DNA of 64,000 nt, taken from NCBI RefSeq assembly GCF_018729255.1, contig NZ_CP076061.1, forward strand, positions 2,446,419-2,510,418, in the 5' to 3' direction. The stretch comes from Cupriavidus sp. EM10 (GTDB lineage Bacteria > Pseudomonadota > Gammaproteobacteria > Burkholderiales > Burkholderiaceae). Position numbers and translations under genes: made by a program. The notes below the pieces were generated by a model. That model was given only the letters and a program-made list of their open reading frames with translations. It ran no database searches and had not been told where the DNA came from. Shown here piece after piece: positions 44,530 through 61,620 of this stretch. Position 1 is the first letter of the stretch. Each line of letters opens with the position of its first letter.

Positions 44530-45645
44530 TCAACCCAGCGCCGCCCGCACCCCGCTGAGCGCATCGATGGCCTCGCGCAGTTCGCGCTCCAGCACCGCAA
44601 CCAGTTCGGCCGATGGCATCGAGCGCGCCAGCGGCGCGGCCTGGCCGGCCCACTGGGCGGCGAATTCGCTGACGCCCTTGGCCTTGGCGGCGGCGTGCAG
44701 GGCCTTGCCGGCGTCGTACGTCACCGGATAGTCGGGGATTGCCGGGGCATCGGCGGCGGTGCCGAGGCTTGTGAAGCGGCTGGTGAAGCCGCGCGCGGCG
44801 CGTCCCGAGATGGCGCGGGTCAGCGTGGTGGGGCGGGTGTCTGCGGCAGTCAGCGCGGCGCGATAGGCGGCGTCGGCGGCCGATTCGTCGGTGGCTACGA
44901 AAGCCGTCCCCAGTTGCGCGGCGGCGGCGCCCAGCGCCAGCACGGCGGCGATCCCCGCGCCATCCATGATGCCGCCTGCGGCGATCACGGGCAGGCCGGT
45001 GCGGGCCACCAGCACGCGCGTCAGCGCGAAAATGCCTAGCCCTTCGTCTTCCGCCTCGGTGTCGAAGGCGCCGCGATGGCCGCCGGCCTCGATGCCCTGG
45101 GCCACGATGGCGTCAATGCCGGCCGCCTCGACCCGCCGGGCATCCTGCAGCGACGTGGCGCTGGCCAGCAGCACGATGCCGGCCGCCTTCATCGCATCGA
45201 TCCATTCCTGGGCCGGCAGGCCGAAATGGAAGCTCACCACGGCCGGCTTTTCTTCCAGCAGCATCTGGTACATCGCGTCGTCGACCACGAAGCTCTTGTA
45301 GATCTCGCGCAGCGCGGAGGGCGGCGTGGCGCCGAATTCGGCGAACGCCGATGCCAGATATCCCAGCCATGCTGATTCGCGCTCGGCGTCGGGCGTGGCG
45401 GGCGGGTGGCAAAACAGGTTGATATTGAACGGCCGAGCGGTCAGCGCGCGGGTTTCGCGGATCACCTTGCGCGCGCCTTCGGCATCCATGGCACCTACGC
45501 CCAGAGAGCCCAGGCCGCCGGCCTCGGAGACGGCGGCGGCCATGGCGGGGGTGCTGACGCCGGCCATCGGCGCCTGGATGATGGGCAGGCGGATGCCCAG
45601 GCGCGACAACAGGTGGCGGGACGGGTTCTGACGGGTGGTTTCCAT
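44530..45645 (-). CDS. nitronate monooxygenase
   Basis: A 371-residue FMN-dependent TIM-barrel protein of the 2-nitropropane dioxygenase family. Motifs: [64 protein letters not shown] (catalytic His), [20 protein letters not shown] and [12 protein letters not shown]. It oxidises nitronates such as propionate-3-nitronate. Two starts are possible: 45645 with AAGGA upstream, or 45663, whose ATG overlaps the TGA of the upstream LysR gene (ATGA). Either way the LysR regulator and this gene form an operon. Confidence 0.92.
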
Positions 45646-45659
45646 GGCGGTGGTCCTTG

Positions 45660-46589
45660 TCATGCAAGCTGGCCCCGGCGCAGTTCCTGCTCGAACGCGT
45701 CGTAGGCGGAGGTGGAGAAGCCGGAACGGCGGATCAAAAACGTATGCACTTTCCGGACGGAAACGGTCTGCAGCGCGCCCGCATCGCCCAGCATGGCCAG
45801 CAGCGAACGCGGCACGATGGCCACGGCCGAGCCTGCCATGACCTGGGCCAGGATGGCGTGGTACGAGGGGAGTTCGATGACCGCGAGATGGCGGCGCACA
45901 TCGTCGCCGGCCTGTTCGAGCCAGTCTTCTGCACAGCGCCGATAGGTGCAGCCGCGCGAAAAGGCGGCCAGCTGGCGCAGGGTCACATCTTCGGGGCGCC
46001 GCACCTTTGGATGGGTCGCCGGCAGCACCAGGACCAGTTCCTCGGTGGTCAGGTAGATGCCCTCCAGGCCTTCGCCCATGTCGGATACGGCGATGTCCCG
46101 CGGGGCGCCCGTACCGGGGTGTGCCACGATCGCGCAGTCCACCCGGCGTTCCAGCACGGCATCGGCCAGCGCCTGCGACGTGCCGGTGGTCAGGTCCAGT
46201 TCGACATCGGGCCAGGCGGCGTGGAAGCGGCCCAGCGGCCGGGGCAGCAGCGTGGCGGCGGTGCTTTCCATCGATCCCACGCGCAGTCGGCCGCTCGGGG
46301 CATCGGCGCGCATCGACTGCCGCGCTTCCTCGGCCAGCGCCAGCAGCTGGTCCGCATAGCCAAGCAGCCGTTGCCCGGCGGGGGTCAGGATCATCTGCTT
46401 GCTGGCGCGCTGGAACAGGTTGACGCCCAGGCTTTCCTCAAGCTGCTTCACCCGCGTGGTGACGTTCGATTGCACGCGGTCCAGCACCTTGGCGGCACGG
46501 GTGATGCTCTGCTCGCGGGCCACCGCCCGGAAAATCTCCAGTTCAGCCAGTTCCACGCCGTGCAACGACACGTTCGTGTCGTTCTCCAA
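45660..46589 (-). CDS. LysR family transcriptional regulator
   Basis: A 309-residue LysR protein. HTH in [20 protein letters not shown] with [20 protein letters not shown]. The effector domain includes [20 protein letters not shown] and [15 protein letters not shown]. The wording resembles LysR regulators of drug or antibiotic efflux in enterobacteria and Burkholderia. It is cotranscribed with the nitronate monooxygenase. The short upstream region before the MFS gene end contains two GAGAAT copies (46592 and 46623), possibly part of its own operator. Confidence 0.9.
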
Positions 46590-46648
46590 TCGAGAATGAA
46601 AGTGTCGATAGTATTGTAATCAGAGAATCAATTGTCAAGCTGGCCGCA

Positions 46649-47907
46649 TCACTGCCGGCGCGCCCAGCGGTCGAATCCGGCACAGGCCAGCAGCAGGGCA
46701 CTGGTGACGAAGAAGACCGAGCGCATGCCAAAGTGCACGCCGATCTGGCCGCCGATCAGCGGCCCGACGACCTGCCCGGCAAACTGGGCCGACTGCAGGT
46801 AGCCCAGCATCTTGCCCGACTGGTGCTCCTTCACGGCCTGCCGTACCAGCTTGCCGATGGCCGGCAGCAGCCCGGCCAGCGTCATGCCCATCAGGCCGCG
46901 CAGCACCGCCAGCGACCACCAGTTCGTCACGAAGGCCTGCGGGATCATGACCAGCGCGGTGGCAACCAGGCAGCCGATGATGACGTTCCAGGCGCCAATG
47001 CGGTCGGCCAGCGCCCCGAGCCGCGACGCGGTCAGCACGCTGCCCAGCGCCGAACTGGCCATGACGATGCCGGCCGCCGTGACCAGGCGGTCGTGCGGCA
47101 CGCCCAGCTGGCCGATGTACACGGTAATGATCGGCTCGATCGACATGTTCGACAGCAGCACCATGGTGGCCGTGACCAGCAGGGCGGCCAGCGGGATACG
47201 GGATCCGGCTGCGTGGGTGGCGGCCCCGGAAGTTGCGGTCCCGATTGCCTTGACTGGCCGCTGAAAGTCCTCGCGCACCAGGAAAATGGTCAGCAGGGCG
47301 GCCACGGCGATCATCGCCCCGCCTGCGAAGAAGGTGCCGCGAATGCCGATCAGGCCCGGCAGCAGGCCGCCAACCAGCGGACCGACCAGGTTCCCGACCA
47401 GCGCCCCGGTCGACAGCACGCCCAGCGCCCAGCCAGCCCGTTCCGGCGGCGCCTGCGTGCCGATCATCACGGTGGCTGCCGACGCGTAGCCGCCGATCAG
47501 GCCCGCCGCGAAGCGCAGGGCCACCAGTTCGTAGACGTTGTGCGCCAGTCCGATCATCGACATGACGATGGCCATGCCGACGGCGGCGCGCACCAGCATC
47601 GGCTTGCGCCCGAAGCGGTCGGCCAGCTTGCCCCACAGCGGCGCGGTCACGGCCGTGGCCAGGAAGGTCACGCCGAAGGCGACACCCGACCACTGGACGA
47701 TGTCGGCCTGCGCGGTCACGCCCAGCTGCTCCACGTACAGCGGCAGGAACGGCAGCAGCATGCTCAGGCTGACGAGCGTGGTGAACGAGCCAAACGTGGC
47801 CACCGCGAGATTGCGCTGCCAGTACGTGGCATTGCGGGCGGCGTAGCCGTGGGGGGGACGTTTTCAGGAACGGAAGAGGCGGAGAGGGCGCTGGGGGATT
47901 CGGACAT
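46649..47907 (-). pseudogene. MFS drug-type transporter (MdtG-like), frameshifted near the N-terminus
   Basis: A 12-segment MFS transporter: VATFGSFTTLVSLSMLLPFL, WGKLADRFGRKPMLVRA (motif A), PIITVYIGQLGVPHDRLVTA. The 384-codon frame from 47803 lacks the first ~34 residues. ATG 47907 opens MSESPSALSASSVPENVP but falls out of frame at the run of seven G (47851-47857, seven C on the coding strand); one more base would continue into HGYAARNATYWQRNLAVATF. The partial second copy at 54281-54504 is in frame across this point, supporting the intended reading. Either a true deletion or a homopolymer error; translation could restart at 47803. Confidence 0.8.
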
Positions 47908-48148
47908 GGCGTGATTTATAGTGATGCCCGGCCAGCGGCGCCCGGGGGTGGATGGACGCCGGACTGGACCGGTGCCTCAAAGCTAGGGGAAAACCCACCC
48001 CATGGCGAAGGCATGCGGTGTATCAACAGTTATGCACGGCAGTAACAACTAACCGGAGACAGCGTCATGAAGAAGGGAGAACCGCAGGCCGGCATACCGG
48101 CCGCCGAGCTGATCGATGCCAGGATCGCCGAGCTTGGCGACTGGCGCG
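47685..48148. repeat. left copy of a direct duplication flanking the island
   Basis: 464 bases covering the 5' part of the MFS gene, the intergenic region and the first 82 bases of a DUF1801 gene. The same sequence, slightly diverged in the MFS part and identical in the DUF1801 part, recurs at 54281-54637. The left copy has about 108 bases of intergenic DNA (47920-48028) missing from the right copy. Confidence 0.85.
48067..48148 (+). pseudogene. 5' fragment of a DUF1801 gene
   Basis: ATG 48067 encodes MKKGEPQAGIPAAELIDARI AELGDWR, identical to the start of the intact DUF1801 gene at 54556, then changes abruptly at 48140-48148 into unrelated integrase-like DNA. The 9 bases ACTGGCGCG at the break are shared by both partners. 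The fragment keeps its ribosome binding site but lacks four fifths of the gene. Confidence 0.85.
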
Positions 48149-48365
48149 CCGCAGTTCTTCGGCAAGTGCTGGGCTACCGTCCTGGACGACGTCTGCGTCC
48201 GTTGCGAAGAATCGCTTCATGACCCGCCATAGCCGCCAGGCAGTGATCCCACCCTCAGTACTGAAGCTGCCGATCAAGGGCGTCGACGGTCGCCACTGCG
48301 ATGGCGTCACCGGCAGCCCACGCTCCACGAGGTAACGATCGCCAAGCGCCACGTTGCGAGCTATC
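48149..48365 (-). pseudogene. fragment of a tyrosine recombinase-like integrase
   Basis: On the minus strand the frame reads ARNVALGDRYLVERGLPVTP, then ITAWRLWRVMKRFFATDADV and ALAEELRRAS, ending at the junction with the DUF1801 fragment. This resembles the segment just before the RHTHATH active-site box of tyrosine recombinases in Burkholderiaceae; the catalytic box itself is missing. Truncated at both ends. The family call is from memory of similar sequences and is tentative. Confidence 0.4.
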
Positions 48366-48650
48366 CAGCATCACGCAAATTTCTTTGACCACACCGAGCT
48401 CTACACGATACGGGCTCGTTGCATCATTCATGTGGTCGACAAAGACGCAGTTGAGCGACGCAATGCGATGGTGGTCCTAGTGTGCAGGTTCAAGGTTGTC
48501 CGCGAGGTTGGCGAGAATGCCATCCATGCAGAACAGGCAGTGAGACGACTCGCCGATTGCGTCACGAATGGTGAGAAGCTCGGGCACCTTCAGCAAGGTG
48601 CGGCGCCTGGATACTTCCACTACATCCTCGTACCGGGCGTTGTTGAGCGT
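48366..48650. other. unassigned stretch between integrase fragment and metG
   Basis: About 285 bases. In the same frame as metG, directly after its TGA, an open stretch reads NARYEDVVEVSRRRTLLKVP and ends SSHCLFCMDGILANLADNLE before a stop near 48478. It has no start codon with a ribosome binding site and no family I recognise. It is not the usual tRNA-binding C-terminus of MetRS. It may be the remnant of another gene fused against metG. Confidence 0.35.
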
Positions 48651-50297
48651 TCAGCCGTTTCGTCCAGCGCTCTCGAGCATGGCCTCCACCTGCACCGCCT
48701 CCACGCGCTTCATCAGCGGCGAGAAGTCGTTCACAGTGTGGCCAACAAGGGGTTGGGCACGGTGGTGCCATTCCAGTGCATCAAGATTCAGGTACTCACA
48801 GACTTTTCGTGCAGTTTCAGGCAGCACGGGTTGCAGATAGATGGTGAGCAGCCGAAACAAGTTTATCCCAACGCTGCAAATTTCATGCAGCACCTGGTCC
48901 TGCCCCGCTTCTTTGGCAATGATCCAGGGCTTCTTCTCATCGATATACTGATTGGCTCGATCCGCCAGCGCCATAATTTCGCGCACCGCCTGACCATACT
49001 CTCGTTTTTCGTAGCACTCGCCTAAGAACTTGCCAGCTTCGACGAAGCTAGCGAGCAACTCAGGTTCCGTGCACGTCAAGGAAAGGGTGTTATCAAAACG
49101 CTTACTGATAAAGCTGGCGCAACGACTAGCAATGTTAATGTATTTTCCGATCAGATCAGAGTTTACTCGTTGCAAGAAATCGCTAAGATTAAAGTCGATA
49201 TCATGTATTCCGCTGCCAAGTTTTGCTGCAAAATAATAACGCAAATACTCAGGATCGAGATGATCCAGATAGTTGTTCGCGTTGATGAATGTGCCACGCG
49301 ATTTTGACATTTTTTCGCCGTTGGCGTTAAGGAAGCCGTGGGTGAAAATTGCCGTCGGCTTTCGGTAACCAGCCCCTTCAAGCAAGGCGGGCCAGAACAG
49401 TGTGTGGAAATATGTAATATCCTTGCCAATGAAATGGTATAGCTCTGTATTGCTCTCGGATGACCAGAATTCATCGAAGTCTAGCCCATTTTTGTCGCAC
49501 AAGACTTTAAAGCTTGCCATGTAGCCAATGGGCGCATCCAGCCAAACGTAAAAGTACTTATCCTCCGTATCCGGGATCTTAAAACCGAAATAGGGGGAAT
49601 CCCGGGAAATATCCCAGTCGCGGAGCCCAGCCTCGAACCACTCTGCCAGCTTGCGACTTACTTCCGCTTGCACACTGCCGCTCTCTTGCGACCATTTCCT
49701 GAGCATTGGCTCAAAATCAGTGAGTTTAAAAAAGTAGTGCAACGACTCCTTCTTCACCGGCGTGGCGCCCGAGAGAACCGAGTACGGATTCTTCAATTCC
49801 ACAGGAGTGTAGGTGGCGCTGCACTTCTCACAGTTATCTCCATATTGGTCGGAGGCACCGCAGCGGGGGCACTCGCCCTTGACGTAGCGGTCCGGTAGGA
49901 ACATATGTTCCTGGGGGTCGTATGCTTGAGTGATGAGCCGAGTGGCAATATGACCTGCTGCCCGATTCTTCAAGTAGACTGTTTCGACAAGTTGCCGATT
50001 CTCGTCGGAATCGGTAGTGTGGTAGTGGTCGAACGAAATGTAGAACGCTGCGAAGTTTGCCTTATGTTCCTGTGCCACCTGTTCGATCAGGGCCTGTGGC
50101 GTAATGCCTAGCTTTCTGGCATGCAACATGATCGGCGCACCATGCGCATCGTCGGCGCAGACGTAGTAAGTCTCGTGCCCGGTGCCACGATGATAACGAA
50201 CCCATATGTCGGTTTGGATAGCTTCGAGGATGTGCCCAAGATGAAGCGAACCGTTGGCATAAGGTAGTGCGTTAGTCACCAGCATCTTCTTACTCAT
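48651..50297 (-). CDS. metG: methionyl-tRNA synthetase, short form lacking the C-terminal tRNA-binding domain
   Basis: A 548-residue class I synthetase closely following E. coli MetG. The HIGH motif is in [18 protein letters not shown], the zinc knuckle is [17 protein letters not shown], the methionine pocket includes [14 protein letters not shown], and KMSKS is in [11 protein letters not shown]. The anticodon-binding helical domain is complete ([15 protein letters not shown] to [13 protein letters not shown]), ending soon after [12 protein letters not shown]. The EMAP-II-like dimerisation/tRNA-binding domain of full-length bacterial MetG (about 120 residues) is absent, but the core is sufficient for activity in E. 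coli. Base composition is clearly more AT-rich than the surroundings. It follows the M20 amidohydrolase by 157 bases on the same strand. Probably a second, horizontally acquired MetRS. Confidence 0.93.
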
Positions 50298-50454
50298 TTC
50301 GACTATCTCAAGTTATTTCGCGTTCTCCGGATTAAATCACCGAAAACTCGAATATTTGTAAAATTAAAGTTTTATAGCATTGCGGACAGTAATACTGCCC
50401 GAAGACCACTTGCATATTTCCGACGGCATAGCAGTGCGATCTACTTTCGTTACC

Positions 50455-51669
50455 TTAACTGACTGGCATGTCGGGTAAGACCGCATACTCGCGGGTGACA
50501 AAACGCCGGGCGGTTTCAGCCAGGACGGCGGTTCCCAGCGGCATTACCGACTCGTCAATGTCGAAAGTATCTGAGTGATGATTGCGGACCACCCCGTCGG
50601 GCAGAGCGGCGCCGAGCATGAACATCGCTCCCTTTGATGACTGGGTCATGTAGGAGAAGTCCTCAGCGCCCATCCCGAATTCAGTGGTATCGATCGTTTC
50701 TTCGCCCATCAGATCGAGCACGGTGCGTCTGAGCCATTTGTTGATCTGTTGGTCGTTGAACATCACCGGATAGCCGTGCAGCTTCTCCAGCCGGTATCCA
50801 CCGCCCATCGCCTCACTTAGCCTCAGCGCGGCTTCAAGTTCGTTCCACAACTGTGTCCGAACCTGCTCATCGAAAGCGCGAACGGTTCCGGAAAGATAGA
50901 CCGAATCGGGTATGACATTGGGGGCCTTGCCAGCCTGAATCTGACCCAAGCTGAGGATGCACGAGTCCAACGGACTGATCCGTCGGGACGGAATGGCATA
51001 GATCGTATTCAGTATCGGCCCAAGCATGAACAGCGGGTCTCGCCCCAAGTGCGGGTAGGCCCCGTGCCCGCCCTCGGCGAAAATCCAGGCGTTGAAGGAG
51101 TCAACAGAAGCCAAGCTGGCGCCATCCTGAAAGTAACAGATCCCCGAAGGGTGGTTTGAATCGACATGCAGGGCAATTACCGCATCAACACCAGCCAGTG
51201 CACCGTCTGCAATCATGGCTGTGGCCCCACTCAGCCCATTGCCGTCAAAGCCCTCTTCAGAGGGCTGAAATAGCAGCCGAACGTTCCCCTTCCAAGCGTG
51301 CCGGTTATCGAGGAAATCGCGCTGCAGTAGTTTTGCCACTCCCAGTAGCATCGCAGTGTGCGCATCGTGCCCGCAGGCGTGCATCACACCCGGGTTTTCT
51401 GAAGCAAAAGAGAGTGCCGTCTTCTCGGTGATCGGCAATGCGTCCATATCCGCTCTGATTGCGATTGTCGGGCCCTCCAGTGCTCCAATGTATGCAACAA
51501 CACCGGTGCCGCCGACTCCGGTCGACACTCGATTAACCCCCGTCTCGAGTAGGTATCGGGTCACAACACCGGCGGTGCGCAATTCCTGAAAGCCCAGTTC
51601 TGGGCAACGGTGTATATTCCGCCGTAAACTGACTAGTTCGTCTTGAATTGCAAAAGCTTGTGTCAACAT
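50455..51669 (-). CDS. M20 family amidohydrolase (N-acyl-amino acid/hippurate hydrolase-like)
   Basis: A 404-residue M20D-type metallopeptidase. Start set at ATG 51669 because AAGGAG lies six bases upstream; the ATG at 51675 abuts that site. Metal ligands: HACGHDAHTAM, the Glu pair in LLFQPSEEGFDGNGLSG, and a late His in RNHHSDTFDIDE. The lid domain has FAEGGHGAYPHLGRDPLFML. Such enzymes remove acyl groups from N-acyl amino acids or cleave amino acid conjugates. No signal peptide, so cytoplasmic. It lies between the HTD2-type gene and metG in the island; a link with an N-acylated amino acid is a reasonable inference. Confidence 0.92.
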   Translation of the reverse strand: MLTQAFAIQDELVSLRRNIHRCPELGFQELRTAGVVTRYLLETGVNRVSTGVGGTGVVAYIGALEGPTIAIRADMDALPITEKTALSFASENPGVMHACGHDAHTAMLLGVAKLLQRDFLDNRHAWKGNVRLLFQPSEEGFDGNGLSGATAMIADGALAGVDAVIALHVDSNHPSGICYFQDGASLASVDSFNAWIFAEGGHGAYPHLGRDPLFMLGPILNTIYAIPSRRISPLDSCILSLGQIQAGKAPNVIPDSVYLSGTVRAFDEQVRTQLWNELEAALRLSEAMGGGYRLEKLHGYPVMFNDQQINKWLRRTVLDLMGEETIDTTEFGMGAEDFSYMTQSSKGAMFMLGAALPDGVVRNHHSDTFDIDESVMPLGTAVLAETARRFVTREYAVLPDMPVS

Positions 51670-51801
51670 CACCATCTCCTTCACCACGGCATTTGCTTTG
51701 AACGCTCCCTTGTCTGAGCCCAAATGAAATCGACCGCGACGTAGTTCGGTTGCGCGGGGCGACAAGAGCATACTTGCACTGTCAGGAGGGATAACGAAGA
51801 G

Positions 51802-52697
51802 CTAACTCACCGGAAAGTAGCCCATCAGATATAGAAAACAGACCGCGCCGCGCTGCACGCCGATTAACTGGATCGTCATTACTGGGAATCGCTGTTCATT
51901 GAGCGCCGTGGCTCTAATTAGGTTTACGGCATCATCAAGTTCCACACAGAGGAGAGTCGTGCTATTGACGTAGGTTGGTCGGTGGACTTTTACGGCGATC
52001 CTGCCGGCACGGAAGCCTGGGTGTGAGCGGAGTGCCCGCCCAATCAGAACCTGTGCCAATAGTGGCCCATGAACAAGCAGTCCCCGATGGCCTTCCTCCC
52101 CGTAGCGTATGCCGCATCGTAATGGACGCGGTGATAAACCTTCAGCATTGCAGAGTAGCGAAACAGATCGACCTCGCTGAATGAGATCGACTTCATCACA
52201 GGTAGAGTTGCTTCGTCGAGCTTCTCGTTAGTCCGGCACACGATGGCCGGTTTGCCGGACGGTCCAGAGGCCGGACGGTAGACCCCAGTTCGCCGCTCTT
52301 CCAACACCACGGTATCTCCATCGCTCAAGCTCAATTCGATCGGCACAAAGGCCATCTCTCCAGACTTTCCTTGCTTCAGGATTGCTCGGCCAACCTCAGT
52401 GCGCAAGAGCAGGGGCTGGCCGAAATCGACCGCGACCTTGCCGCACTCGATGACGGAGTCAGTCCAGAGACGTCGCACAAAGTGCTCGGGTACTCCCCAT
52501 GGGCGAACCTTGGGGTGACCGTCCACACCCAGTTTCACCCCCAATGGGGTTTCATGGGTGAACAGCCAATGCCAAGCAGGCAGCAGCGGCGCGCTCGCTG
52601 CTGGCGTTTCACCCAGAACCTCTGCCATCAGATGAGAAAATTCAAGATACCGGGTTTTGTCGAGGATGAATTCACGCTCTGTTATCGCCATACGCAC
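51802..52697 (-). pseudogene. HTD2/FAS1-like MaoC-family dehydratase, frameshifted
   Basis: Two adjoining frames make one hot-dog-fold dehydratase of about 298 residues. From 52697: REFILDKTRYLEFSHLMAEV, LLPAWHWLFTHETPLGVKLG, RRLWTDSVIECGKVAVDFGQ, GDTVVLEERRTGVYR and AMLKVYHRVHYDAAYATG. The second frame continues GEEGHRGLLVHGPLLAQVLI, then IAVKVHRPTYVNSTTLLCVE. The HYDxxYA and HGPLLAQ motifs are typical of HTD2/mesaconyl-C4-CoA hydratase proteins. One more base in the C4 run at 52098-52101 (G on the coding strand) joins them. These enzymes hydrate or dehydrate acyl-CoA or acyl-ACP. Confidence 0.8.
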
Positions 52698-52700
52698 CCT

Positions 52701-53016
52701 CTAGCGGCAGTCCACAACGAGCCGCCCCTTTCTCCGGGTCGATTCGAGGAACTCGGAAAAATCCACTACCCGTAGTCGAACTTCGACGGCTGAGGCCGAT
52801 AGCTCAGGAATGCAGCGGGCGATTGCCTGTGAAAGCGAGTCCTTGAGCGATTCAGAGGCGACCGGCTCCCCATCAAGCAAAGCGACAATGAACTCGACGT
52901 GATCAGTTGTAACTCAGTCGTCGTTCAAGTCCACCACTACACTTTTCTATCACCCAGGCACGATGGTTACTACCAGCACGCTCAACCATGCTTTCAAAAC
53001 AGAACTCTTCCACCAT
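52701..53016 (-). pseudogene. short ORF resembling the C-terminal domain of a phenylacetate-CoA ligase-like enzyme, frameshifted
   Basis: GGGAG lies six bases before ATG 53016, which opens MVEEFCFESMVERAGSNHRA and continues to GGLERRLSYN before a TGA near 52905. One frame over, the sequence runs on as DHVEFIVALLDGEPVASESL, AIARCIPELSASAVEVRLRV and RRKGRLVVDCR to TAG 52701. Together these about 105 residues have the pattern of the small C-terminal domain of PaaK-type adenylate-forming ligases (regulatory beta-alpha unit and a terminal basic GR-DxR). The catalytic N-terminal domain is absent. It ends four bases before the HTD2-type gene. Identification is tentative. Confidence 0.35.
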
Positions 53017-53200
53017 GACAACTCCCGAGCCTATTTAATACAACCTGAAAAAACCACGAACATCGTGACCGGAAAACCGAGCATTCATTCTAGTTGCGCC
53101 CTTGTCTCGGCGGGGGTCAACATTGACTGAAGCACAGTAGGCAAGCGCATGGTATGCAGAACACAGTTCGCCGCCTATAGTAAAAATCCGAAACATGATT
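53017..53200. other. AT-rich non-coding stretch in the island
   Basis: This is among the most AT-rich sequence in the window, around 53150-53230 especially (TTTTAAATTTTAATT-like). It probably contains the promoter for the minus-strand island genes. No gene seen. Confidence 0.4.
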
Positions 53201-53977
53201 TTAAATTTTAATTCTGACTTTAGAATTGATTAATTCATGCTGTTGTAGCATCGTGCTAAAGGGGTTGGGGGAGCAGTGGAACTGTAAAAGCAGTTCAGCC
53301 CGCAATGCATCGACTTCACACCCGGCTGCCATGCCGGCCTTGAGCATGTCGTCGACGCTCGGCGTCTTGTCGAAGCGCCTGCGACTGATCGCCAGCACCT
53401 CTTCCACCAAACCTTCTCATTCATGGCGTCGCCTCATATCTGCTTGCAGGCGTGCGTCGTTCGGAAACATCTGGATGGCACGTTTGGCGTTCGCAAATGC
53501 ACCGCATGCGGTCATGGTTCTCGAGGAACTCGGTGACCTGCTGGCAGTCCTGCGCGTTCAGAAAGGTCTTCGCACAGCACGGCCAGGGCGCCATCAATGT
53601 CTCCGGTGCGCTCCAGCACCGCAAGATGCAACCGCTCGAGCATCCCTAAGCGCGGGCTGCGTGCCGCGCGACTGTCGAAATATGGCTCGCGACGTCGCAG
53701 GCGCCTGGCTTTTTCCGCCTGTGCAGTGTGCTCGGCCTTCGCTGCCAGCACCTCGTCCTTGGCAGCACGCCAATGCGCGGCCAGCCTTACGATACTGCTT
53801 GACCGCGTGCTCCCCAATCGCGGTTTCCGCAGCCGCGGTATCGAAACTGCCGAACGGGTCCTCCAGCAGCAACGGGAGATAGGTACCACCGAAAGCCATC
53901 GGCTAAGGCCCCGCGTCTTGCAGGTCCGCGACGAACTCTTCGCCGATGGAATTGACCAGATCCGCCGATCTCGCCAT
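53201..53977 (-). pseudogene. decayed DUF6880-like gene
   Basis: Pieces of one protein appear in different minus-strand frames in colinear order: MARSADLVNSIGEEFVADLQ (from 53977), GGTYLPLLLEDPFGSFDTAA with ETAIGEHAVKQYRKAGRA, then HWRAAKDEVLAAKAEHTAQA, GMLERLHLAVLERTGDIDGA, QQVTEFLENHDRM, and finally LVEEVLAISRRRFDKTPSVD ending near 53201. At least three or four frame changes separate them, more than single sequence errors would readily explain, so this is a true relic. The wording recalls DUF6880 proteins, function unknown. Confidence 0.5.
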
Positions 53978-54108
53978 TGCAGGCCGACCGGAGCATGTCT
54001 GTCGGCTCGAAATCGCGCCTTGATCGCGGTGATGTCCGTGCTGCTGAGTTGGATGAATTGCTGCAGGTCGAATTTGTTCAAGCGAGCGGGCAGAGCCTCT
54101 CTGCCCAC
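53974..54108 (-). pseudogene. N-terminal fragment of a Tn3-family-like transposase
   Basis: ATG 54108 opens GREALPARLNKFDLQQFIQL followed by SSTDITAIKARFRADRHAPV, which resembles the DUF4158 N-terminal domain of Tn3-family transposases. The similarity stops after about 45 residues, where the DUF6880-like relic begins in another frame. No terminal inverted repeat recognised. Tentative. Confidence 0.35.
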
Positions 54109-54280
54109 CCATCGATAAATAAATGACTAAAGCGGCACTTCATGCGGCATTGTTCGGAGGAAGACTGCGCGGCAAGAGCCCAGATCGCCGCATTAAGTCA
54201 CCGTCAGAAAACCTGAAACGTGCGCCAGAAAAAGGGTTAGCGGGCAAGTCGTATCGATCTGCACAAAAAGGAACGATTAC

Positions 54281-54504
54281 CCCGACCACTGGACGATGTC
54301 GGCCTGCGCGGTCACGCCCAGTTGCTCGTCATACAACGGCAGGAACGGTAGCAGCATGCTCAGGCTGACGAGCGTGGTGAACGAGCCAAACGTGGCCACC
54401 GCGAGGTTGCGCTGCCAGTACGAGGCGTTGCGGGCAGCGTAGGCGTGGACGGGGACGTTTTCAGGAACGGAAGAGGCGGAGAGGGCGCTGAGGGATTCGG
54501 ACAT
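54281..54504 (-). pseudogene. 5' fragment of the MFS transporter gene
   Basis: ATG 54504 encodes MSESLSALSASSVPENVPVH then ARNASYWQRNLAVATFGSFT and LLPFLPLYDEQLGVTAQADI, ending at the island junction after VQWSG. It is in frame where the main copy (46649-47907) is not, and differs from it by several substitutions, so it may come from a related but not identical donor. Confidence 0.85.
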
Positions 54505-54637
54505 GGCGTGATTTATAGTTATGCACGGCAGTAACAACTAACCGGAGACAGCGTCATGAAGAAGGGAGAACCGCAGGCCGGCATACCGGCCGCCGAGCTG
54601 ATCGATGCCAGGATCGCCGAGCTTGGCGACTGGCGCG
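54281..54637. repeat. right copy of the direct duplication flanking the island
   Basis: Matches 47685-48148 apart from scattered substitutions in the MFS part and a loss of about 108 intergenic bases. The loss lies between short imperfect repeats AGTGATGC and AGTTATGC seen in the left copy (47920 and 48028). The right copy runs directly into the intact DUF1801 gene; the left copy belongs to the near-complete MFS gene. Confidence 0.85.
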
Positions 54638-54969
54638 GCGAGATGCTTGCGCAATTGCGGGCCATCGTCCTGGAAGCCGATCCCGAGGTGGTCGAGGAAT
54701 GGAAATGGAGCGTGCCGGTGTGGTCGCGCGACGGCATCCTGTGCACGGGCGAGGTCTACAAGGCGGCCGTGAAGATGACGTTCGCCAAGGGCGCGTCGCT
54801 GGACGATCCCAAGGGACTGTTCAATTCGAGCCTGGACGGCAACGTGCGCCGGGCGATCGACTTCCGCGAGGGCCAGGCCATCAACAAGACCGCCCTGAAG
54901 GCGCTGATCCGCGCGGCGGTGGCATTGAACCAGTCCACCGCCAAGCCGAAGGCCAAGGCGCGGGCCTGA
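54556..54969 (+). CDS. DUF1801 domain protein
   Basis: A 137-residue protein with the YdhG-like DUF1801 fold: IDARIAELGDWRGEMLAQLR, ADPEVVEEWKWSVPVWSRDG, GEVYKAAVKMTFAKGASLDD, NSSLDGNVRRAIDFREGQAI, and a basic Lys/Ala tail. GGAGAC precedes the ATG. This is the intact counterpart of the fragment at 48067. The normal upstream region appears shortened by a deletion in this copy, which may affect its promoter. Function of the family is unclear; some members relate to iron or stress. Confidence 0.88.
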   Translation: MKKGEPQAGIPAAELIDARIAELGDWRGEMLAQLRAIVLEADPEVVEEWKWSVPVWSRDGILCTGEVYKAAVKMTFAKGASLDDPKGLFNSSLDGNVRRAIDFREGQAINKTALKALIRAAVALNQSTAKPKAKARA

Positions 54970-55151
54970 TCCGGCAGGGATGGCCGCCCGGCACCCGCCC
55001 ATGTCGGCGCGACACCGACATCCATTTCGGCCGTTGCGGGGTAGCATGAGTCGCTTTGGCTTGTTGTTGCGCGCCGTGCGGTCAGTGCGGTCCATGCGGT
55101 CCATGCGGTCGTCAGGCGCGCGCAGCCACGACCCCCTTCTATCCGGCCGGT

Positions 55152-58100
55152 ATGCAACCGTCTTCCCTGCAACGCTTCCTGTTTGGCGCGATTATCGTCC
55201 CGGTCACGATGGCCGTGGTGTTTGGCGTCGACGCGCTGACGCCGCTTGGCCTGGCCGCCTGGCTGTTCTACCTGGTGCCAGTCTGCCTGACCCTCTACGG
55301 CAATAACCCGAAGCTGCCGCTGATTACCGCTGCGGTGGCCACGGTGCTGATCGGCATCGGCTACGCGGTGTCGCCGGCCAGCACCATCAGGCCGATCTAC
55401 GCCATCGCCAACCGCAGCGCGGGCGTGATCATGCTGTGGTTCCTGGCGGCGGTGGTCTACCGCTATATCGTGTCGCAGACGGCCATGCAGCGCGTGGCCT
55501 GGCTGCAGCAGGCACAGGTGCGGGTGCACCAGGCCGTGCGCAATCCGCAATCGGCCGGCAATGTCGCCGACGGGCTGGTGCGCGTGCTGGCCGAGGCGTT
55601 CCAGGCGCATGTGGGCGTGGTGTACCAGGTCGATGGCGACCACATGCACCGCGTGGCCAGCTGGGCCCTGGCCAATGCCGACGACCTGCCGCAATCGCTG
55701 ACATCGGGGCAGACGCTGGCCGGCCAGGCGGCGGCCGAGAATCGGGTCATCGCGGTGGGCGGGCTGCCGGCCGACTATCTGCAGGTGTCGTCGGCACTGG
55801 GCCGCACGTCGCCCAACGAGATCGTTGCCGCGCCGCTGACAGCCGAGGGCGAGGTGATCGGCGTGGTGGAACTGGGCTTCGTCTCCATGCAGCGCGATAC
55901 CGCGGACATCGTGGAGTTGCTGGAGCGCATTGGCGATCCGATCGGCATGACGCTGCGCGCCGCCGCCTATCGCGGCCGCCTGGAAAAGCTGCTGGGCGAG
56001 ACCCAGCGCCAGAGCGAGGAACTGCAGGTCCAGCAGGAAGAGCTGCGCGTATCGAACGAGGAACTGGAAGAGCGTGGCCGCGCGCTGATGGATTCGCAGG
56101 CGCGGCTCGAAGCCCAGCAGGCGGAGCTGGAGCAGACCAACGTCCAGCTGGAAGAGCACGCGCAGCGGCTGGAAGGCCAGAAGCGCGAGATGCTGACGTT
56201 CCAGGCCGAACTGGCCGCCAACGCCCGCGCGCTGGAGCGATCCAACCAGTACAAGAGCGAATTCCTGGCCAATATGTCGCACGAACTGCGCACGCCGCTG
56301 AATAGTGCGCTGATCCTGGCCAAGCTGCTGCAGGAGAACAAGGAAGGCACGCTGACCGCCGAGCAGGTGCGCTACGCAGCCACCATCCACGCGGCCAACA
56401 CCGACCTGCTGAACCTGATCAACGACATCCTGGACCTGTCGAAGATCGAGGCCGGCCATCTGGTGATCGAGCACGAACCGGTGGAACTGAAGGCGCTGAC
56501 CGACACCATGCAGGGCATGTTCGGGCCGATCGGCGAGCAGAAGGGTGTGCCGTTCCGGGTCGAGCTGCTGCCCGGCGTGCCGGACGCGATCGTGTCCGAC
56601 AGCCAGCGTCTGCAGCAGGTGCTGAAGAACCTGCTGTCCAACGCGTTCAAGTTCACGGAATCGGGCGCCGTCACGCTGGCACTGGCCGCGCAGGGCGACG
56701 ATGCGGTGCGGTTCGAGGTGCGCGATACCGGCATCGGCATCCCGAAGGACAAGCAGCAGGTTATCTTCGAAGCCTTCCAGCAGGCCGATGGCACCACCAG
56801 CCGCCGCTATGGCGGCACGGGGCTGGGCCTGTCGATCTCGCAGGAACTTGGCCGCCTGCTGGGCGGCGCGATTTCCGTAGCCAGCGAGCCCGGCCAGGGC
56901 AGCGTGTTCGCGCTGACGGTGCCGCGCGTGCTGGGTGGCGACGCCGCCGCGCAGGCGGGGCTGATGAACCAGCAGGCCAACGCCCAGGCCCACACACAGT
57001 CCACCGGGGCCGCACAGTTGTCGGTGGCCCCGCCGCCGCGCGCCGTGCCGCCGGCCCCGGCGCCGGCCCAGGAGCCCATGGACCGCGTGCAGCCGGGCTA
57101 TCCGGCGCCGATTCCCGACGACCGCGACCATCGCACGCGCGGCAACCGGCTGATCCTGGTGGTCGAGGACGATCTCGACTTCGCCGGCATTCTCTACGAT
57201 CTGGCCCACGAACTCGATTTCGACTGCATCCACGCCACCACGTCGGCGCAAGGCCTGGAACTGGCGCGCCAGCACCAGCCGTGCGGCATCCTGCTGGACG
57301 TGGCGCTGCCCGACCAGTCGGGCCTGACGCTGCTGGACTGGCTCAAGCGCGACCCGGCCACGCGTCACATCCCCACGCACCTGGTATCGGTCAGCGACCA
57401 TGCCGAGGCGGCGCTGCACCTGGGCGCGGTGGGCTACACGTTCAAGCCGAGCGAGCGCGACAAGCTGGCTTCGGCCATCCGGGGCCTGGAAGCGCGCATG
57501 GCCGCCGGCCAGCGCCGGGTGCTGGTGATCGAGGACGATCCGGCGCTGCGCGAGAGCATCCGCGCGCTGCTGAAGTCGCTGGAGGCGGAGATCGTGACCA
57601 CCGACAGCGTGGCCGGCGCCACGGCGGCGCTGGACGGCTCGCCGTTCGACTGCGTGGTGATGGACATGGTGCTGCCCGACGGCACCGGCCACGACCTGCT
57701 GGCCCATATGGCGCAGCGGGCGCAGGCCAACGCCGGGGCCATGCCGCCCGTCATCATCTATACCGGCCGCCAGCTGTCGGCCGAGGACGAGCAGAAGCTG
57801 CGCCGCTATTCCAAGTCGATCATCATCAAGGGCGCCCGGTCGCCAGACCGGCTGCTGGACGAGGTGACGCTGTTCCTGCACAGCGTGGAGTCGTCGCTGC
57901 CGCCCGAGCACCAGCGCATGCTGCGCGCCGCGCGCAGCCGCGACGACGCCTTCGACGGGCGGAAACTGCTGCTGGTGGAAGACGATGCGCGCAACATCTT
58001 CGCGCTGTCGAAGGTGATCGAGCCGCTGGGCGCCACCGTGGAGATTGCCCGCAGCGGCCGCGAGGCGCTGGAGCTGCTGAAGCGGGTCGATGACATCCAC

Positions 58101-58328
58101 CTGGTGCTGATGGACATCATGATGCCCGAGATGGATGGCATTACCGCCATGCAGCACATCCGCCAGATGCCGCGGTACGCGCGGCTGCCGATCATCGCGC
58201 TGACCGCCAAGGCCATGCAGTCCGACCGCGAGGCCTGCCTGCAGGCCGGCGCCAACGACTACATCGCCAAGCCGATCGATGTGGACAAACTGCTTTCGCT
58301 GTGTCGGGTATGGCTACACGCAAACTGA
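55152..58328 (+). CDS. hybrid sensor histidine kinase with GAF domain and three receiver domains
   Basis: A 1058-residue protein. Start at ATG 55152 (MQPSSLQRFLFGAIIVPVTM). About three membrane segments (10-110), a GAF domain (130-275), a coiled coil (280-365), HisKA with NMSHELRTP (His377), and HATPase with NLLSNAFKF, RDTGIGIP and GGTGLGL. A Pro/Ala linker leads to three receivers with phospho-acceptors Asp716 (LLDVALP), Asp838 (VVMDMVLP) and Asp988 (VLMDIMMP). The last receiver has the full DD, D, T, K set; the first has a Val-Ser at the Thr region (LVSVSDH). Heads a four-gene operon with CheR, CheB and a second kinase, overlapping the next gene by 19 bases. Confidence 0.93.
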   Translation: MQPSSLQRFLFGAIIVPVTMAVVFGVDALTPLGLAAWLFYLVPVCLTLYGNNPKLPLITAAVATVLIGIGYAVSPASTIRPIYAIANRSAGVIMLWFLAAVVYRYIVSQTAMQRVAWLQQAQVRVHQAVRNPQSAGNVADGLVRVLAEAFQAHVGVVYQVDGDHMHRVASWALANADDLPQSLTSGQTLAGQAAAENRVIAVGGLPADYLQVSSALGRTSPNEIVAAPLTAEGEVIGVVELGFVSMQRDTADIVELLERIGDPIGMTLRAAAYRGRLEKLLGETQRQSEELQVQQEELRVSNEELEERGRALMDSQARLEAQQAELEQTNVQLEEHAQRLEGQKREMLTFQAELAANARALERSNQYKSEFLANMSHELRTPLNSALILAKLLQENKEGTLTAEQVRYAATIHAANTDLLNLINDILDLSKIEAGHLVIEHEPVELKALTDTMQGMFGPIGEQKGVPFRVELLPGVPDAIVSDSQRLQQVLKNLLSNAFKFTESGAVTLALAAQGDDAVRFEVRDTGIGIPKDKQQVIFEAFQQADGTTSRRYGGTGLGLSISQELGRLLGGAISVASEPGQGSVFALTVPRVLGGDAAAQAGLMNQQANAQAHTQSTGAAQLSVAPPPRAVPPAPAPAQEPMDRVQPGYPAPIPDDRDHRTRGNRLILVVEDDLDFAGILYDLAHELDFDCIHATTSAQGLELARQHQPCGILLDVALPDQSGLTLLDWLKRDPATRHIPTHLVSVSDHAEAALHLGAVGYTFKPSERDKLASAIRGLEARMAAGQRRVLVIEDDPALRESIRALLKSLEAEIVTTDSVAGATAALDGSPFDCVVMDMVLPDGTGHDLLAHMAQRAQANAGAMPPVIIYTGRQLSAEDEQKLRRYSKSIIIKGARSPDRLLDEVTLFLHSVESSLPPEHQRMLRAARSRDDAFDGRKLLLVEDDARNIFALSKVIEPLGATVEIARSGREALELLKRVDDIHLVLMDIMMPEMDGITAMQHIRQMPRYARLPIIALTAKAMQSDREACLQAGANDYIAKPIDVDKLLSLCRVWLHAN

Positions 58329-59200
58329 AACCGAAGGACGTGGAATCACCGGCCGCCGCTGGCCTGGACGACGGCACGGTGCTGCTCGATGCCAATTTCG
58401 ATATCGAGCTGGAACTGCTGCTGGAGGCCATCTTCCGCAAGTACCAGCATGATTTCCGGCGCTATTCGCGGGCGTCGCTGCGGCGTCGGCTGGAGCAGGC
58501 GTTGCGCGATCTGGGCCTGGGCACGCTGTCGCAGCTGCAGGACCGCATGCTGCGCGATGCCGTGCTGTTCGGCCGGCTGCTGCAGTACCTGACGGTGCAG
58601 GTCAGCGAGATGTTTCGCGATCCGAGCTACTTCCGCGCGATCCGCGAGCATGTGGTGCCGGTGCTGCAGACCTATCCGTCGATCAACGTCTGGGTGGCCG
58701 GCTGCAGCAGTGGCGAGGAACTGTGGTCGCTGGCCATCCTGTTCGACGAAGAAGGGCTGTCGTCGCGCACGGTGTTCTACGCCACCGACATCAACCCGGA
58801 GGCCCTGGCCATTGCCCGCGCCGGCGTGTACGACGCCGGGCGCCTGCGTGGCTTCGGCGAGAACTACCTGGCCGCCGGTGGGCGCCGCTCGCTGTCGGAC
58901 TACTATCACGCCGCCTATGGCAAGGCCAAGTTCAACGCCCAGCTGATCCGGCAATCGGTGTTCGCCGACCATAGCCTGGCCACCGACAGCGTCTTCCAGG
59001 AGGCCCAGCTGATTTCCTGCCGCAACGTGCTGATCTATTTCGACCGGCCGCTGCAGGACCGCGCCATTGGCCTGTTCCGCGATGCGCTGGCGCGGCGCGG
59101 GTTCCTGGGGCTGGGCAGCAAGGAAAGCCTGCACTTCAGTGCCCATGTCAAGGATTTCGAGCCGGTGGCGTCGCGCGAGCGGCTGTACCGCAAGCTCTGA
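58310..59200 (+). CDS. CheR-type protein-glutamate O-methyltransferase
   Basis: A 296-residue methyltransferase. N-terminal helical domain (FRRYSRASLRRRLEQALRDL, VSEMFRDPSYF), then the SAM-binding fold INVWVAGCSSGEELWSLAIL, FYATDINPEALAIARAGVYD and ISCRNVLIYFDRPLQ. The CheR family methylates chemoreceptor glutamates, but with no MCP, CheA or CheW here the target is unknown. ATG 58310 chosen; GTG 58301 in frame is an alternative. Overlaps the kinase gene, so translation is coupled. Confidence 0.92.
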   Translation: MATRKLKPKDVESPAAAGLDDGTVLLDANFDIELELLLEAIFRKYQHDFRRYSRASLRRRLEQALRDLGLGTLSQLQDRMLRDAVLFGRLLQYLTVQVSEMFRDPSYFRAIREHVVPVLQTYPSINVWVAGCSSGEELWSLAILFDEEGLSSRTVFYATDINPEALAIARAGVYDAGRLRGFGENYLAAGGRRSLSDYYHAAYGKAKFNAQLIRQSVFADHSLATDSVFQEAQLISCRNVLIYFDRPLQDRAIGLFRDALARRGFLGLGSKESLHFSAHVKDFEPVASRERLYRKL

Positions 59201-59209
59201 GGCGCGACC

Positions 59210-59806
59210 ATGACAACCATGACGCAACCGTATAGCGGGGTGGTGATCGGTGGATCGGCCGGCGCGCTGGAAGCGCTGAACGCCGTGTTGCCGATGCTGC
59301 CGGCGCGCGCCATGCCGGCGGTGGTGATCGTCATGCACCAGTTGTCGTCGACCCCGAGCCTGCTGCCGGGGCTGTTCGCCGTGCGCTGCGCGATGCCGGT
59401 GCACGAGGCCGAAGACAAGCTGCCGGTGCAGCCGGGGCATCTGTACCTGGCGCCGCCGGACTACCACCTGCTGCTCGAACGGGACCCCGACGTGCGGGAC
59501 GGCGTGCGGCTGGCGCTGTCCGTGGCGCCGCCCGTGCGGTTCTCGCGGCCGTCGATCGACGTGCTGTTCGAGTCGGCCGCCGTGGCCTGGCGCGCGCGCG
59601 TGCTGGGCGTGCTGCTATCCGGGGCGAACGACGATGGCGCGCGCGGCCTGGCCGTGATCCGCGCGGCGGGCGGCCAGACATGGGTGCAGTCGCCGGAATC
59701 CGCCGCGGTGGAGACCATGCCGCAAGAGGCCATCGCGCGTGGCGCGGCCGACCGCATACTGACCTTGGAGGCGATTGGCCACGGGCTGGCCCGCCTGACC
59801 GAATGA
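59210..59806 (+). CDS. CheB-type methylesterase domain protein
   Basis: A 198-residue stand-alone CheB methylesterase domain without the receiver. The catalytic triad is visible: Ser16 in VIGGSAGALEAL, His43 in VIVMHQLSS, and Asp142 in LLSGANDDGARG. The substrate loop PGHLYLAPPDYHLLLERD is typical. It would remove methyl groups or deamidate glutamine in the target of the neighbouring CheR. Its TGA overlaps the start of the following kinase gene (ATGA). Confidence 0.92.
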   Translation: MTTMTQPYSGVVIGGSAGALEALNAVLPMLPARAMPAVVIVMHQLSSTPSLLPGLFAVRCAMPVHEAEDKLPVQPGHLYLAPPDYHLLLERDPDVRDGVRLALSVAPPVRFSRPSIDVLFESAAVAWRARVLGVLLSGANDDGARGLAVIRAAGGQTWVQSPESAAVETMPQEAIARGAADRILTLEAIGHGLARLTE

Positions 59807-60960
59807 CGCCTACCATGCAACCACCCGTAAAGATCCTCGCCGTCGACGACATCGCCGCGAACCTGACCGCGCTCGATGCCGTGCTGGCCCGGCCGGGCGT
59901 GGAGATCGTCCACGCCAACTCCGGCGCCCAGGCGCTGGAACTGCTGCTGGACCACGACTTCGGGCTGGCCATCCTGGACGTCCACATGCCCGACATGGAC
60001 GGCTTCGAGCTGGCCGAGCTGATGCGCGGCAGCAAGCGCACCAGCCAGATCCCCATCCTGTTCCTGACGGCCGCCGGCCAGGATAGCCAGCGCGCATTTC
60101 GCGGCTATGCCACGGGCGCGGTCGATTTCCTGTTCAAGCCGGTCGATGCGCGCGTGCTGTCCGCCAAGGTCGATGTATTCGTGCAACTGGCCCAGCAGAA
60201 GCAGTTGCTGTCCGAACAGCTGGAAACCGCCCAGCAGCTGCTGAAGACCAACGAGATGCTGATGGCGGTGCTGGCGCACGACCTGCGCACGCCCCTGTCG
60301 GCAATCATCGCCTCGGCGTCGTTCCTGGGCCGCTTCGGCGGCGAGGAAAAGCTCAAGCCCGCCACGGACCGGATCGCGCGCAGCAGCCAGCGCATGGCGC
60401 GCATGGTGGACCAGTTGCTGCATGTGGCGCGTCTGCACGGCGGGCGGGTCAGCCTGATGCCGCAGGCGTCGGACCTGGGCGCGATCTGCGCGGCCATCGT
60501 CGACGAATGCCAGGTGTCGCGCGGACCGCTGCAACTTGCGCTGGAACTGGCCGGCGACACCCGCGCCACGATCGATCCCGACCTGATCGCCCAGGTCGTG
60601 CAGAACCTGGTGGGCAATGCGCTGCAGCACGGCGACCCCGAGGCGCCGGTAACAGTGCGCGTGGACGGCACTGACCGGGACAGCGTGACGGTGACGGTCT
60701 CCAACGGCGGCGCCATCGATGCGCACCTGCTGCCGCACATCTTCGACGCCTTCCATTCGGGCATGGGCACGACGGCCACCGCCAGTGCCAGCAACCCCGA
60801 AGGGCTGGGGCTGGGCCTCTACATCGCCCGCGAACTGGCCATGCTCCACGGCGGCACCGTGGTGGCCGAATCGTCGCCGGAGGAACGTACGACGATGTTC
60901 TCGGTGAAGCTGCCCCGGGAATGCTGCCAGGCGCAGCGCGCGATCCAGGCTGCAAGATAG
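59803..60960 (+). CDS. response regulator-histidine kinase hybrid (N-terminal receiver)
   Basis: A 385-residue soluble protein with receiver first: VKILAVDDIAANLTALDAVL, phospho-acceptor Asp59 in AILDVHMPDMDGFEL, LFLTA and FKPVDA. A coiled coil follows, then HisKA with VLAHDLRTPLSAI (His159) and HATPase with NLVGNALQHGD, a divergent N-G box (VSNGGAI) and GLGLGLYIARELAML. No membrane segment. As last gene of the kinase-CheR-CheB operon it probably receives phosphate from the hybrid kinase or senses a cytoplasmic signal. Confidence 0.93.
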   Translation: MTPTMQPPVKILAVDDIAANLTALDAVLARPGVEIVHANSGAQALELLLDHDFGLAILDVHMPDMDGFELAELMRGSKRTSQIPILFLTAAGQDSQRAFRGYATGAVDFLFKPVDARVLSAKVDVFVQLAQQKQLLSEQLETAQQLLKTNEMLMAVLAHDLRTPLSAIIASASFLGRFGGEEKLKPATDRIARSSQRMARMVDQLLHVARLHGGRVSLMPQASDLGAICAAIVDECQVSRGPLQLALELAGDTRATIDPDLIAQVVQNLVGNALQHGDPEAPVTVRVDGTDRDSVTVTVSNGGAIDAHLLPHIFDAFHSGMGTTATASASNPEGLGLGLYIARELAMLHGGTVVAESSPEERTTMFSVKLPRECCQAQRAIQAAR

Positions 60961-61200
60961 ACCGGTCGGGCTGCGCTAACCAAGCCGAAGGGGCCGACGG
61001 CCGGGCGGGAATGAAACGTGCCGGATTACGCGGTGGAAGGGCCGTGTGCGGCACGCTATGCCGTTGTTACCACCAAAGGCAGCATGTGGCGCTGCATATC
61101 GGAAATGTGCGAGCGGACGCAGCTTCGTGATTGCCTTCCCCACACCCGCGACCTATAGTTATCCGTCTGGCTAACTATTTGAACCCAGGGGGACTCGACG

Positions 61201-61605
61201 ATGCAGATCACGGTACAGACCACGGTTGCCGCCCCGATCGACCACGTATGGCGTGCCTACACGACGCCCGCCGACATCAAGCAATGGAACGCGGCGTCCG
61301 ATGACTGGCACACCACGGCCGCCTCGGTCGACCTGCGGGAGGGCGGCGCCTTCTCGTCGCGGATGGAAGCGAAGGACGGCAGCATGGGCTTCGACTTTGC
61401 CGGCACCTACTCGGAAATCGTGCCGAACCAGCGTATCGCCTATGCCTTCGGCGAACGGAAGGCCGTGGTGGATTTTGCTCAAACGCCCCAAGGGGTGACG
61501 GTACGCGTGAGCTTCGATCCTGACTCGGAATACCCGGTCGAGCAGCAACAGCAGGGCTGGCAAAGCATCCTCGACAACTTCAAGCGGCACGTCGAGGGCA
61601 AGTAA
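61201..61605 (+). CDS. SRPBCC (AHSA1-like) family protein
   Basis: A 134-residue START-like ligand-binding protein: MQITVQTTVAAPIDHVWRAY, TTPADIKQWNAASDDWHTTA, GGAFSSRMEAKDGSMGFDFA and C-terminal QQQQGWQSILDNFKRHVEGK. This is the activator-of-Hsp90-like/YndB branch, which binds hydrophobic ligands; the function is unknown. GGGGGA precedes ATG 61201. Convergent with the GAF kinase gene. The 240 bases upstream hold its promoter and no other gene. Confidence 0.92.
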   Translation: MQITVQTTVAAPIDHVWRAYTTPADIKQWNAASDDWHTTAASVDLREGGAFSSRMEAKDGSMGFDFAGTYSEIVPNQRIAYAFGERKAVVDFAQTPQGVTVRVSFDPDSEYPVEQQQQGWQSILDNFKRHVEGK

Positions 61606-61620
61606 AACCGCCGGCCGGCT

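Follow-up and report, generated by a model that had tools for sequence, protein, structure and literature searches.

Homology-facilitated illegitimate recombination (HFIR) combines one homologous end with a second joint at a microhomology of 3-10 bp, and its products generally show a deletion, according to PMC3240628. In Streptococcus pneumoniae, transformation can make merodiploids by joining sister chromatids, with duplications far larger than the one described below (as outlined in PMC3784515). Among transposons, the core of Tn6050 is described in PMC2864759 as very similar to the core of mercury transposons. Here we analysed a window of 64,000 nucleotides from Cupriavidus sp. EM10 (C2:2446419-2510418, reaching the contig end; the genome has four contigs and 6.66 Mb), in which the junction between an MFS transporter gene and a DUF1801 gene occurs twice, on either side of a decayed Tn3-family transposon that carries unusual cargo.

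Repeat finding and pairwise alignment both confirmed the direct duplication, with the two copies in the same orientation (Table 1). Three of 12 direct-repeat families build it, with identities of 92, 94 and 96% and spacings of 6596, 6489 and 6597, and pairwise alignment merges the three into a single block, in which the right copy is short of 108 bp. Because the match is colinear over such a length, the junction copies are not due to chance. They lie where the original prediction had located them; its start points, 47685 and 54281, are too early, as the bases on the right side belong to the terminal CCCC of a transposon (54280-54283). A search of the own genome with the junction gave three matches, all at the present locus. 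The DNA of about 6.1 kb between the copies is AT-richer, as had been proposed, with a GC content of 0.547 (48149-54277) compared with 0.691 and 0.682 in the flanks, and its supposed foreign origin is supported. The left MFS copy had been called near-complete. This holds for its length but not for its reading frame, which carries a frameshift in the N-terminal region relative to the right fragment and is open from an internal GTG at 47803. The frameshift sits at a run of seven G (47850-47857) and may be a sequencing error.

Table 1. Features of the duplicated junction and of the DNA between its two copies (positions in the window).
Feature	Position	Strand	Basis or remark
MFS transporter gene, full-length left copy	46649..47907	-	PF07690, E 6.3e-53; syntenic with G013
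Left junction copy (MFS 5' part, intergenic region, first DUF1801 codons)	47688..48148		repeats and alignment
121-bp identical block, in left copy	48028..48148		alignment of copies
Left joint, GCGCG common to host DUF1801 and the relative's integrase	48144..48148		alignment and sequences
Integrase gene remnant (about residues 440-502 of 561)	48144..48341	-	88.9% DNA identity to L061 6001-6198
507-aa hypothetical protein, C-terminal remnant	48341..48536	-	DNA 85.1% to L061 7681-7845, up to 48508
Cargo block, about 4.7 kb, inside the 507-aa gene remnant	48537..53285		GC 0.534; both limits approximate
Second methionyl-tRNA synthetase, 548 aa	48651..50297	-	NF001100, 785.4 bits (cut-off 587)
M20 amidohydrolase, about 410 aa (438-aa open frame from 51771)	50455..51687	-	TIGR01891, 349.2 bits (cut-off 153.75)
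MaoC-like dehydratase, split by a frameshift into two reading frames	51802..52697	-	both pieces match the family profile
507-aa hypothetical protein, N-terminal remnant	53286..53978	-	84.9% to L061 8041-8740, from 53290
Transposase gene start and right transposon end	53977..54283	-	83.4% to L061 12849-13153
Right terminal inverted repeat, GGGG inward	54242..54283	-	match to L061 terminus
Right junction copy	54284..54637		MFS fragment begins at transposon terminus; 108-bp intergenic deletion at 54517
Full DUF1801 gene	54556..54969	+	PF08818, E 1.1e-22

The right boundary of the island is a Tn3-family terminal inverted repeat. This had gone unnoticed in the original prediction, as had the nature of the outer segments of the island, both of which are remnants of that element. 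A plasmid search found an intact relative on the Cupriavidus metallidurans Ni-2 plasmid NZ_CP026547.1 (the stretch denoted L061). The relative is 7489 bp long, has GGGG termini with ATTTC flanking both sides, and encodes an integrase (PF12482 and PF00589 domains), a Tn3-family transposase (870.8 bits against NF033527) and two hypothetical proteins, one of 507 aa and one of 295 aa. About 43% of it, on the transposase side, is 82% identical to an IS882-family element annotated in C. necator H16 (NC_005241.1). Colinear matches to this relative, all on the same strand, cover four pieces of the island. For the C-terminal remnant of the 507-aa protein, tblastn matched residues 424-486 up to 48533, and the end at 48536 was placed by eye. 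Residues 3-52 of the transposase show 84% protein identity to that of the relative. When reversed, the terminal stretch 54242-54285 aligns with the far end of the intact element as well.

MFS sequence (GACCA) follows directly after the CCCC at 54280-54283. Because the MFS fragment begins exactly at the terminal repeat, the transposon had inserted into the MFS gene. The left terminus is absent at the locus, where homology sets in 336 bp into the element, and a search of the island for the relative's 295-aa gene found nothing. A Tn3-family member requires both terminal inverted repeats, of which only the right one is present, and only about the first 50 codons of the transposase remain. A 5-bp target-site duplication would be a further mark of such an element; the intact relative has its ATTTC on either side, and here the left end that would border one copy is lost. 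Since the transposase is nearly all lost, the island is a relic and not a working transposon. Two internal fusions imply at least two further deletions in the transposon: at 48341 the integrase runs into the last part of the 507-aa gene, and at 53977 the first part of the 507-aa gene runs into the start of the transposase. At the left joint, the host DUF1801 match runs to 48148 and the integrase homology begins at 48144; the resulting overlap of 5 bp is judged against a relative of 88.9% identity in place of the lost sequence.

In a survey of the genus, 48 of 60 genomes (own included) had matches to the element (E 1e-30 or better), which in many of them were limited to the integrase part. No second copy of the island DNA was found in the own genome, the other three matches being its own metG and two of 35-45 bases. 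Related integrases (68-71%) lie elsewhere in the genome, at C2:38476-39834, C4:113946-115213 and C4:32030-33349. Two further readings of the island were set aside. An integrated plasmid or phage is not favoured, as genes for replication, conjugation and capsid were absent among the Pfam-scanned proteins, and a tRNA-targeted genomic island found no counterpart in the window, where no tRNA was detected.

How did the junction come to be duplicated? We put at roughly one half the probability that a decayed, cargo-bearing IS882-like Tn3 transposon once lay in the MFS gene and that the junction was doubled by the uneven joining of a transposon-bearing and an empty allele. An IS882-like Tn3-family transposon would have inserted into the MFS gene of one allele, and this allele would then have met another from the same clade in which MFS and DUF1801 were uninterrupted. 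At one end, homologous recombination would have taken place at or near the onset of identity (~54517); at the other, a 5-bp microhomology joint would have linked DUF1801 to the transposon integrase. The outcome would be the 5' MFS parts of both alleles left in tandem. What the locus itself shows is the remnants of the transposon, a terminal repeat that marks the right boundary, the loss of the left terminus, the 5-bp overlap with the relative and a distinct pattern of differences between the copies. From there we infer the meeting of two alleles, in which the transposon-bearing DNA would be the incoming partner and would have arrived by natural transformation or conjugation. Several points count against this merger: no donor allele was found, HFIR usually deletes, the differences are few, and the right joint is perhaps illegitimate.

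An uninterrupted junction had been anticipated in related genomes, and one of the 59 other genomes of the genus (G013) indeed has the whole stretch from the MFS gene through the intergenic region to DUF1801. Window positions 45000-48181 and 54501-56989 align with it as one continuous stretch at 88%. With the MFS-to-DUF1801 query, 22 of the 59 genomes match and 37 are without a match at E 1e-10. Of the 22, G013 matches at full length, 15 match just in the MFS part and five just in the junction or DUF1801 part, and G011 has both parts at separate places. G010, G022 and G011 have the upstream gene together with the DUF1801 region and no MFS gene there. Judged by these genome comparisons, only a small clade seems to have the MFS-DUF1801 junction, and the donor of the second copy should therefore belong to that clade. 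No near donor of the right copy was found among the 59 other genomes; the nearest other junction is that of G013, which is 84% identical to the right copy in the MFS part and 88% overall.

The synteny with G013 also bears on the assembly. An artefact in which the DNA of two strains was fused is hardly credible, as both flanks are syntenic with that genome and the right boundary falls exactly on the transposon terminus. What can be said for it is that base-level quality is uncertain, one frameshift being a homopolymer difference from a near-identical contig and the other lying at the seven-G run.

The two copies differ by substitutions, as originally described, at 13 of 235 aligned MFS positions, together with one indel. 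After the 108-bp deletion in the right copy, there are no differences in 121 bp. At the MFS rate, zero differences over this length would have a probability of about 0.0012, which rises to 0.022 when scaled to the slower rate of the block in comparison with G013. The codon comparison of 12 changes (the discrepancy from 13 is one position beside the indel) gave seven synonymous and five nonsynonymous changes, with synonymous sites making up 25% of the total (one-sided P 0.015), and the reading frame of the right MFS fragment is still open. Because the differences lean synonymous and the right fragment is open, the copies would suit two alleles that diverged in functional genes and then met at the locus, small as the numbers are. 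This lean is a point against an origin in situ, in which an insertion would have been followed by unequal exchange between sister chromosomes, just one of them with the insert, and then by decay. Such an origin makes a foreign donor allele unnecessary, and the relic is much deleted and hence probably old. However, the differences end at 54517, and decay should mark both dead fragments, whereas the left DUF1801 fragment shows none. We regard an origin in situ as very unlikely.

The block of 121 identical bases speaks against the circle that had been suggested originally. In that model, a transposon-bearing donor segment from the integrase to DUF1801 would have been closed by the GCGCG joint and integrated by a single crossover at the host junction. 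The product would be exactly what is seen, direct repeats whose inner ends each have a truncated gene. Yet host-donor differences are expected along the whole repeat, and 121 bp are free of them (P about 0.001 to 0.02); an extra excision step is required as well. Because the two copies are identical over the last 121 bp of the repeat, the single-crossover circle is less favoured and appears unlikely to us. The earlier explanation is partly supported.

Which of the two alleles was the newcomer is a further question. When the differences are polarised by G013, the left copy agrees with that genome at 10 of 13 and the right copy at three of 13. The 10 changes on the right side also suit a fragment evolving faster after truncation, and the mirror image of the favoured merger has to be weighed here. 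The transposon would have sat in the resident MFS gene, and incoming intact MFS-DUF1801 DNA would have joined it by a homologous crossover left of the insertion and by microhomology in the integrase, deleting the left end of the transposon; the right copy would be the old one and the left copy the newcomer. The number of joints equals that of the favoured merger, and the right MFS fragment, with its 10 of 13 polarised changes and its intergenic deletion, is like a dead resident fragment. Set against this, the zero differences in the last 121 bp are unexplained by the model alone, and the left MFS gene is frameshifted, so that no repair is obvious unless the seven-G indel is a sequencing error. 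We hold the mirror image to be a possible but rather unlikely course of events. For the favoured merger, identity starts exactly at the 108-bp deletion point (~54517), where both sides have AGT in common, and the right joint may be homologous near the deletion point or may be a short-homology joint itself.

The cargo within the relic consists of three recognizable genes. The 548-aa methionyl-tRNA synthetase (MetRS) scored 576.4 bits against TIGR00398 (cut-off 336) in the profile search and has catalytic and anticodon domains, HLGH and KMSKS motifs and four conserved cysteines. It resembles MetG in domains and motifs, but it is without the C-terminal PF01588 domain and only 55% identical to the MetG of the own genome (C1:2780096). 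Among the best 120 of 8000 scored proteins, short forms of 544-548 aa occur at 89, 89, 80, 70 and 70%, alongside one protein of 557 aa at 65% and forms of ~670 aa with PF01588 at 71%. HLGH and KMSKS are kept in five short forms and two others aligned alongside. The short relatives on other contigs rule out that the MetRS was shortened by the rearrangement. PDB constructs of 547-551 residues, which we take to be active core fragments of E. coli MetRS, align with residues 2-544, and because constructs of like size align, the short form can probably charge tRNA. A metG gene is also annotated on several Escherichia coli plasmids of ~110 kb, with ~64% DNA identity to the metG of the window.

Relatives of the M20 amidohydrolase (P0121-P0123) include one at 87% (longest contig 15355 bp) and one at 80% (27780 bp). 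Relatives of the dehydratase are 279-281 aa long, and a piece of it matched them at 76% (15355-bp contig), 71% (17354 bp) and 66% (6063 bp). Since these sizes equal those listed for the MetRS relatives P0003, P0002 and P0004, the three cargo genes are probably linked on other contigs too. The stretches 52715-53190 and 48537-48650 flank the cargo genes, and neither reached any family at its cut-off; 48537-48650 had no plasmid match and no Pfam match. A guess by eye that ~52715-52930 is the end of an acyl-CoA ligase was unsupported by Pfam or by plasmid tblastn (best E about 1). The cargo does not look like an IS-bounded unit either, as 48501-48700 and 53151-53320 are without a common inverted word of 9 bases. 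Its edges share one 10-bp direct match (48526-48535 and 53154-53163), possibly by chance.

Within the searched data, the cargo is rare. Scanning with the dehydratase alignment yielded one relative among 37 candidate stretches of genome_contigs and none among nine of viral_contigs. Within the taxonomic order, the cargo DNA is matched in two of 399 genomes at E 1e-100 or better, the own genome and G643. In the class, 16 of 369 genomes (own included) match the dehydratase profile at E 1e-20 or better, the other genomes reaching at best 7.6e-35 compared with 7.6e-124 for the window copy. A plasmid search with P0242 returned 168 records, all below 60% identity. In a literature search on resistant or second MetRS, IS882, Tn6050, HFIR and the MAG name, no title among those listed dealt with the present cargo.

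The sole relative among the 37 candidate stretches of genome_contigs is a 3114-bp contig titled Rhodocyclaceae MAG (JADCJC010000058.1), which equals window 50081-53193 except for one base (99.97%). Its dehydratase is one intact frame of 298 aa. The dehydratase frameshift of the window, near 52097, is a homopolymer difference from this contig and may be a sequencing error. G643 is probably the same MAG, because its cargo match begins at the same base as the contig. G643 had no match to window 54700-62000 or 53194-54283, so that Cupriavidus DNA was not seen there; an empty answer of this kind says nothing without a known positive, although G643 did respond to the cargo. Two explanations stand side by side, a very recent transfer of the cargo between families and the wrong binning of a single 3-kb contig.

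The cargo is the more useful lead from this locus, with three linked-looking genes that include an extra version of an enzyme essential for translation. In self-resistance, a spare aminoacyl-tRNA synthetase can likewise stand next to metabolic enzymes, and metS2 of S. pneumoniae, a second MetRS gene, has a role in inhibitor resistance. We mention, as a speculative and on balance improbable reading, that the cargo could be a rare, mobile and undescribed module. Its short spare MetRS, travelling together with the M20 amidohydrolase and the MaoC-like dehydratase, would serve as a stand-in target against a methionine mimic or a MetRS inhibitor. If true, the MetRS would protect its carrier from a compound that the M20 and MaoC-like enzymes make or break down. 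The likeness to metS2 lies in an extra MetRS gene beside the genome's own; neighbours and species are unlike those of the present cargo.

The island shares with the IS882-like Tn3 elements of Cupriavidus the GGGG terminal repeat and the same order and strand of transposase start, integrase and 507-aa gene. It differs from them in what it has lost, namely the left terminus and the greater part of both transposase and integrase, and in holding foreign cargo inside the 507-aa gene. The joints recall HFIR as described in PMC3240628, one end possibly being a homologous joint and the other showing a 5-bp overlap inside the range of 3-10 bp; the net result here is a duplication instead of a deletion. 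With the merodiploids of S. pneumoniae, as outlined in PMC3784515, the locus has in common that intact and insert-interrupted copies of one locus stand in one chromosome. Those duplications measure ~100-900 kb and have pre-existing repeats at their borders, in contrast to less than 0.5 kb here. In kind, the rearrangement is ordinary, an example of known processes in a good state of preservation. On the favoured reading, one can still follow in the locus how nature spliced an allele with a transposon and one without into a small duplication.
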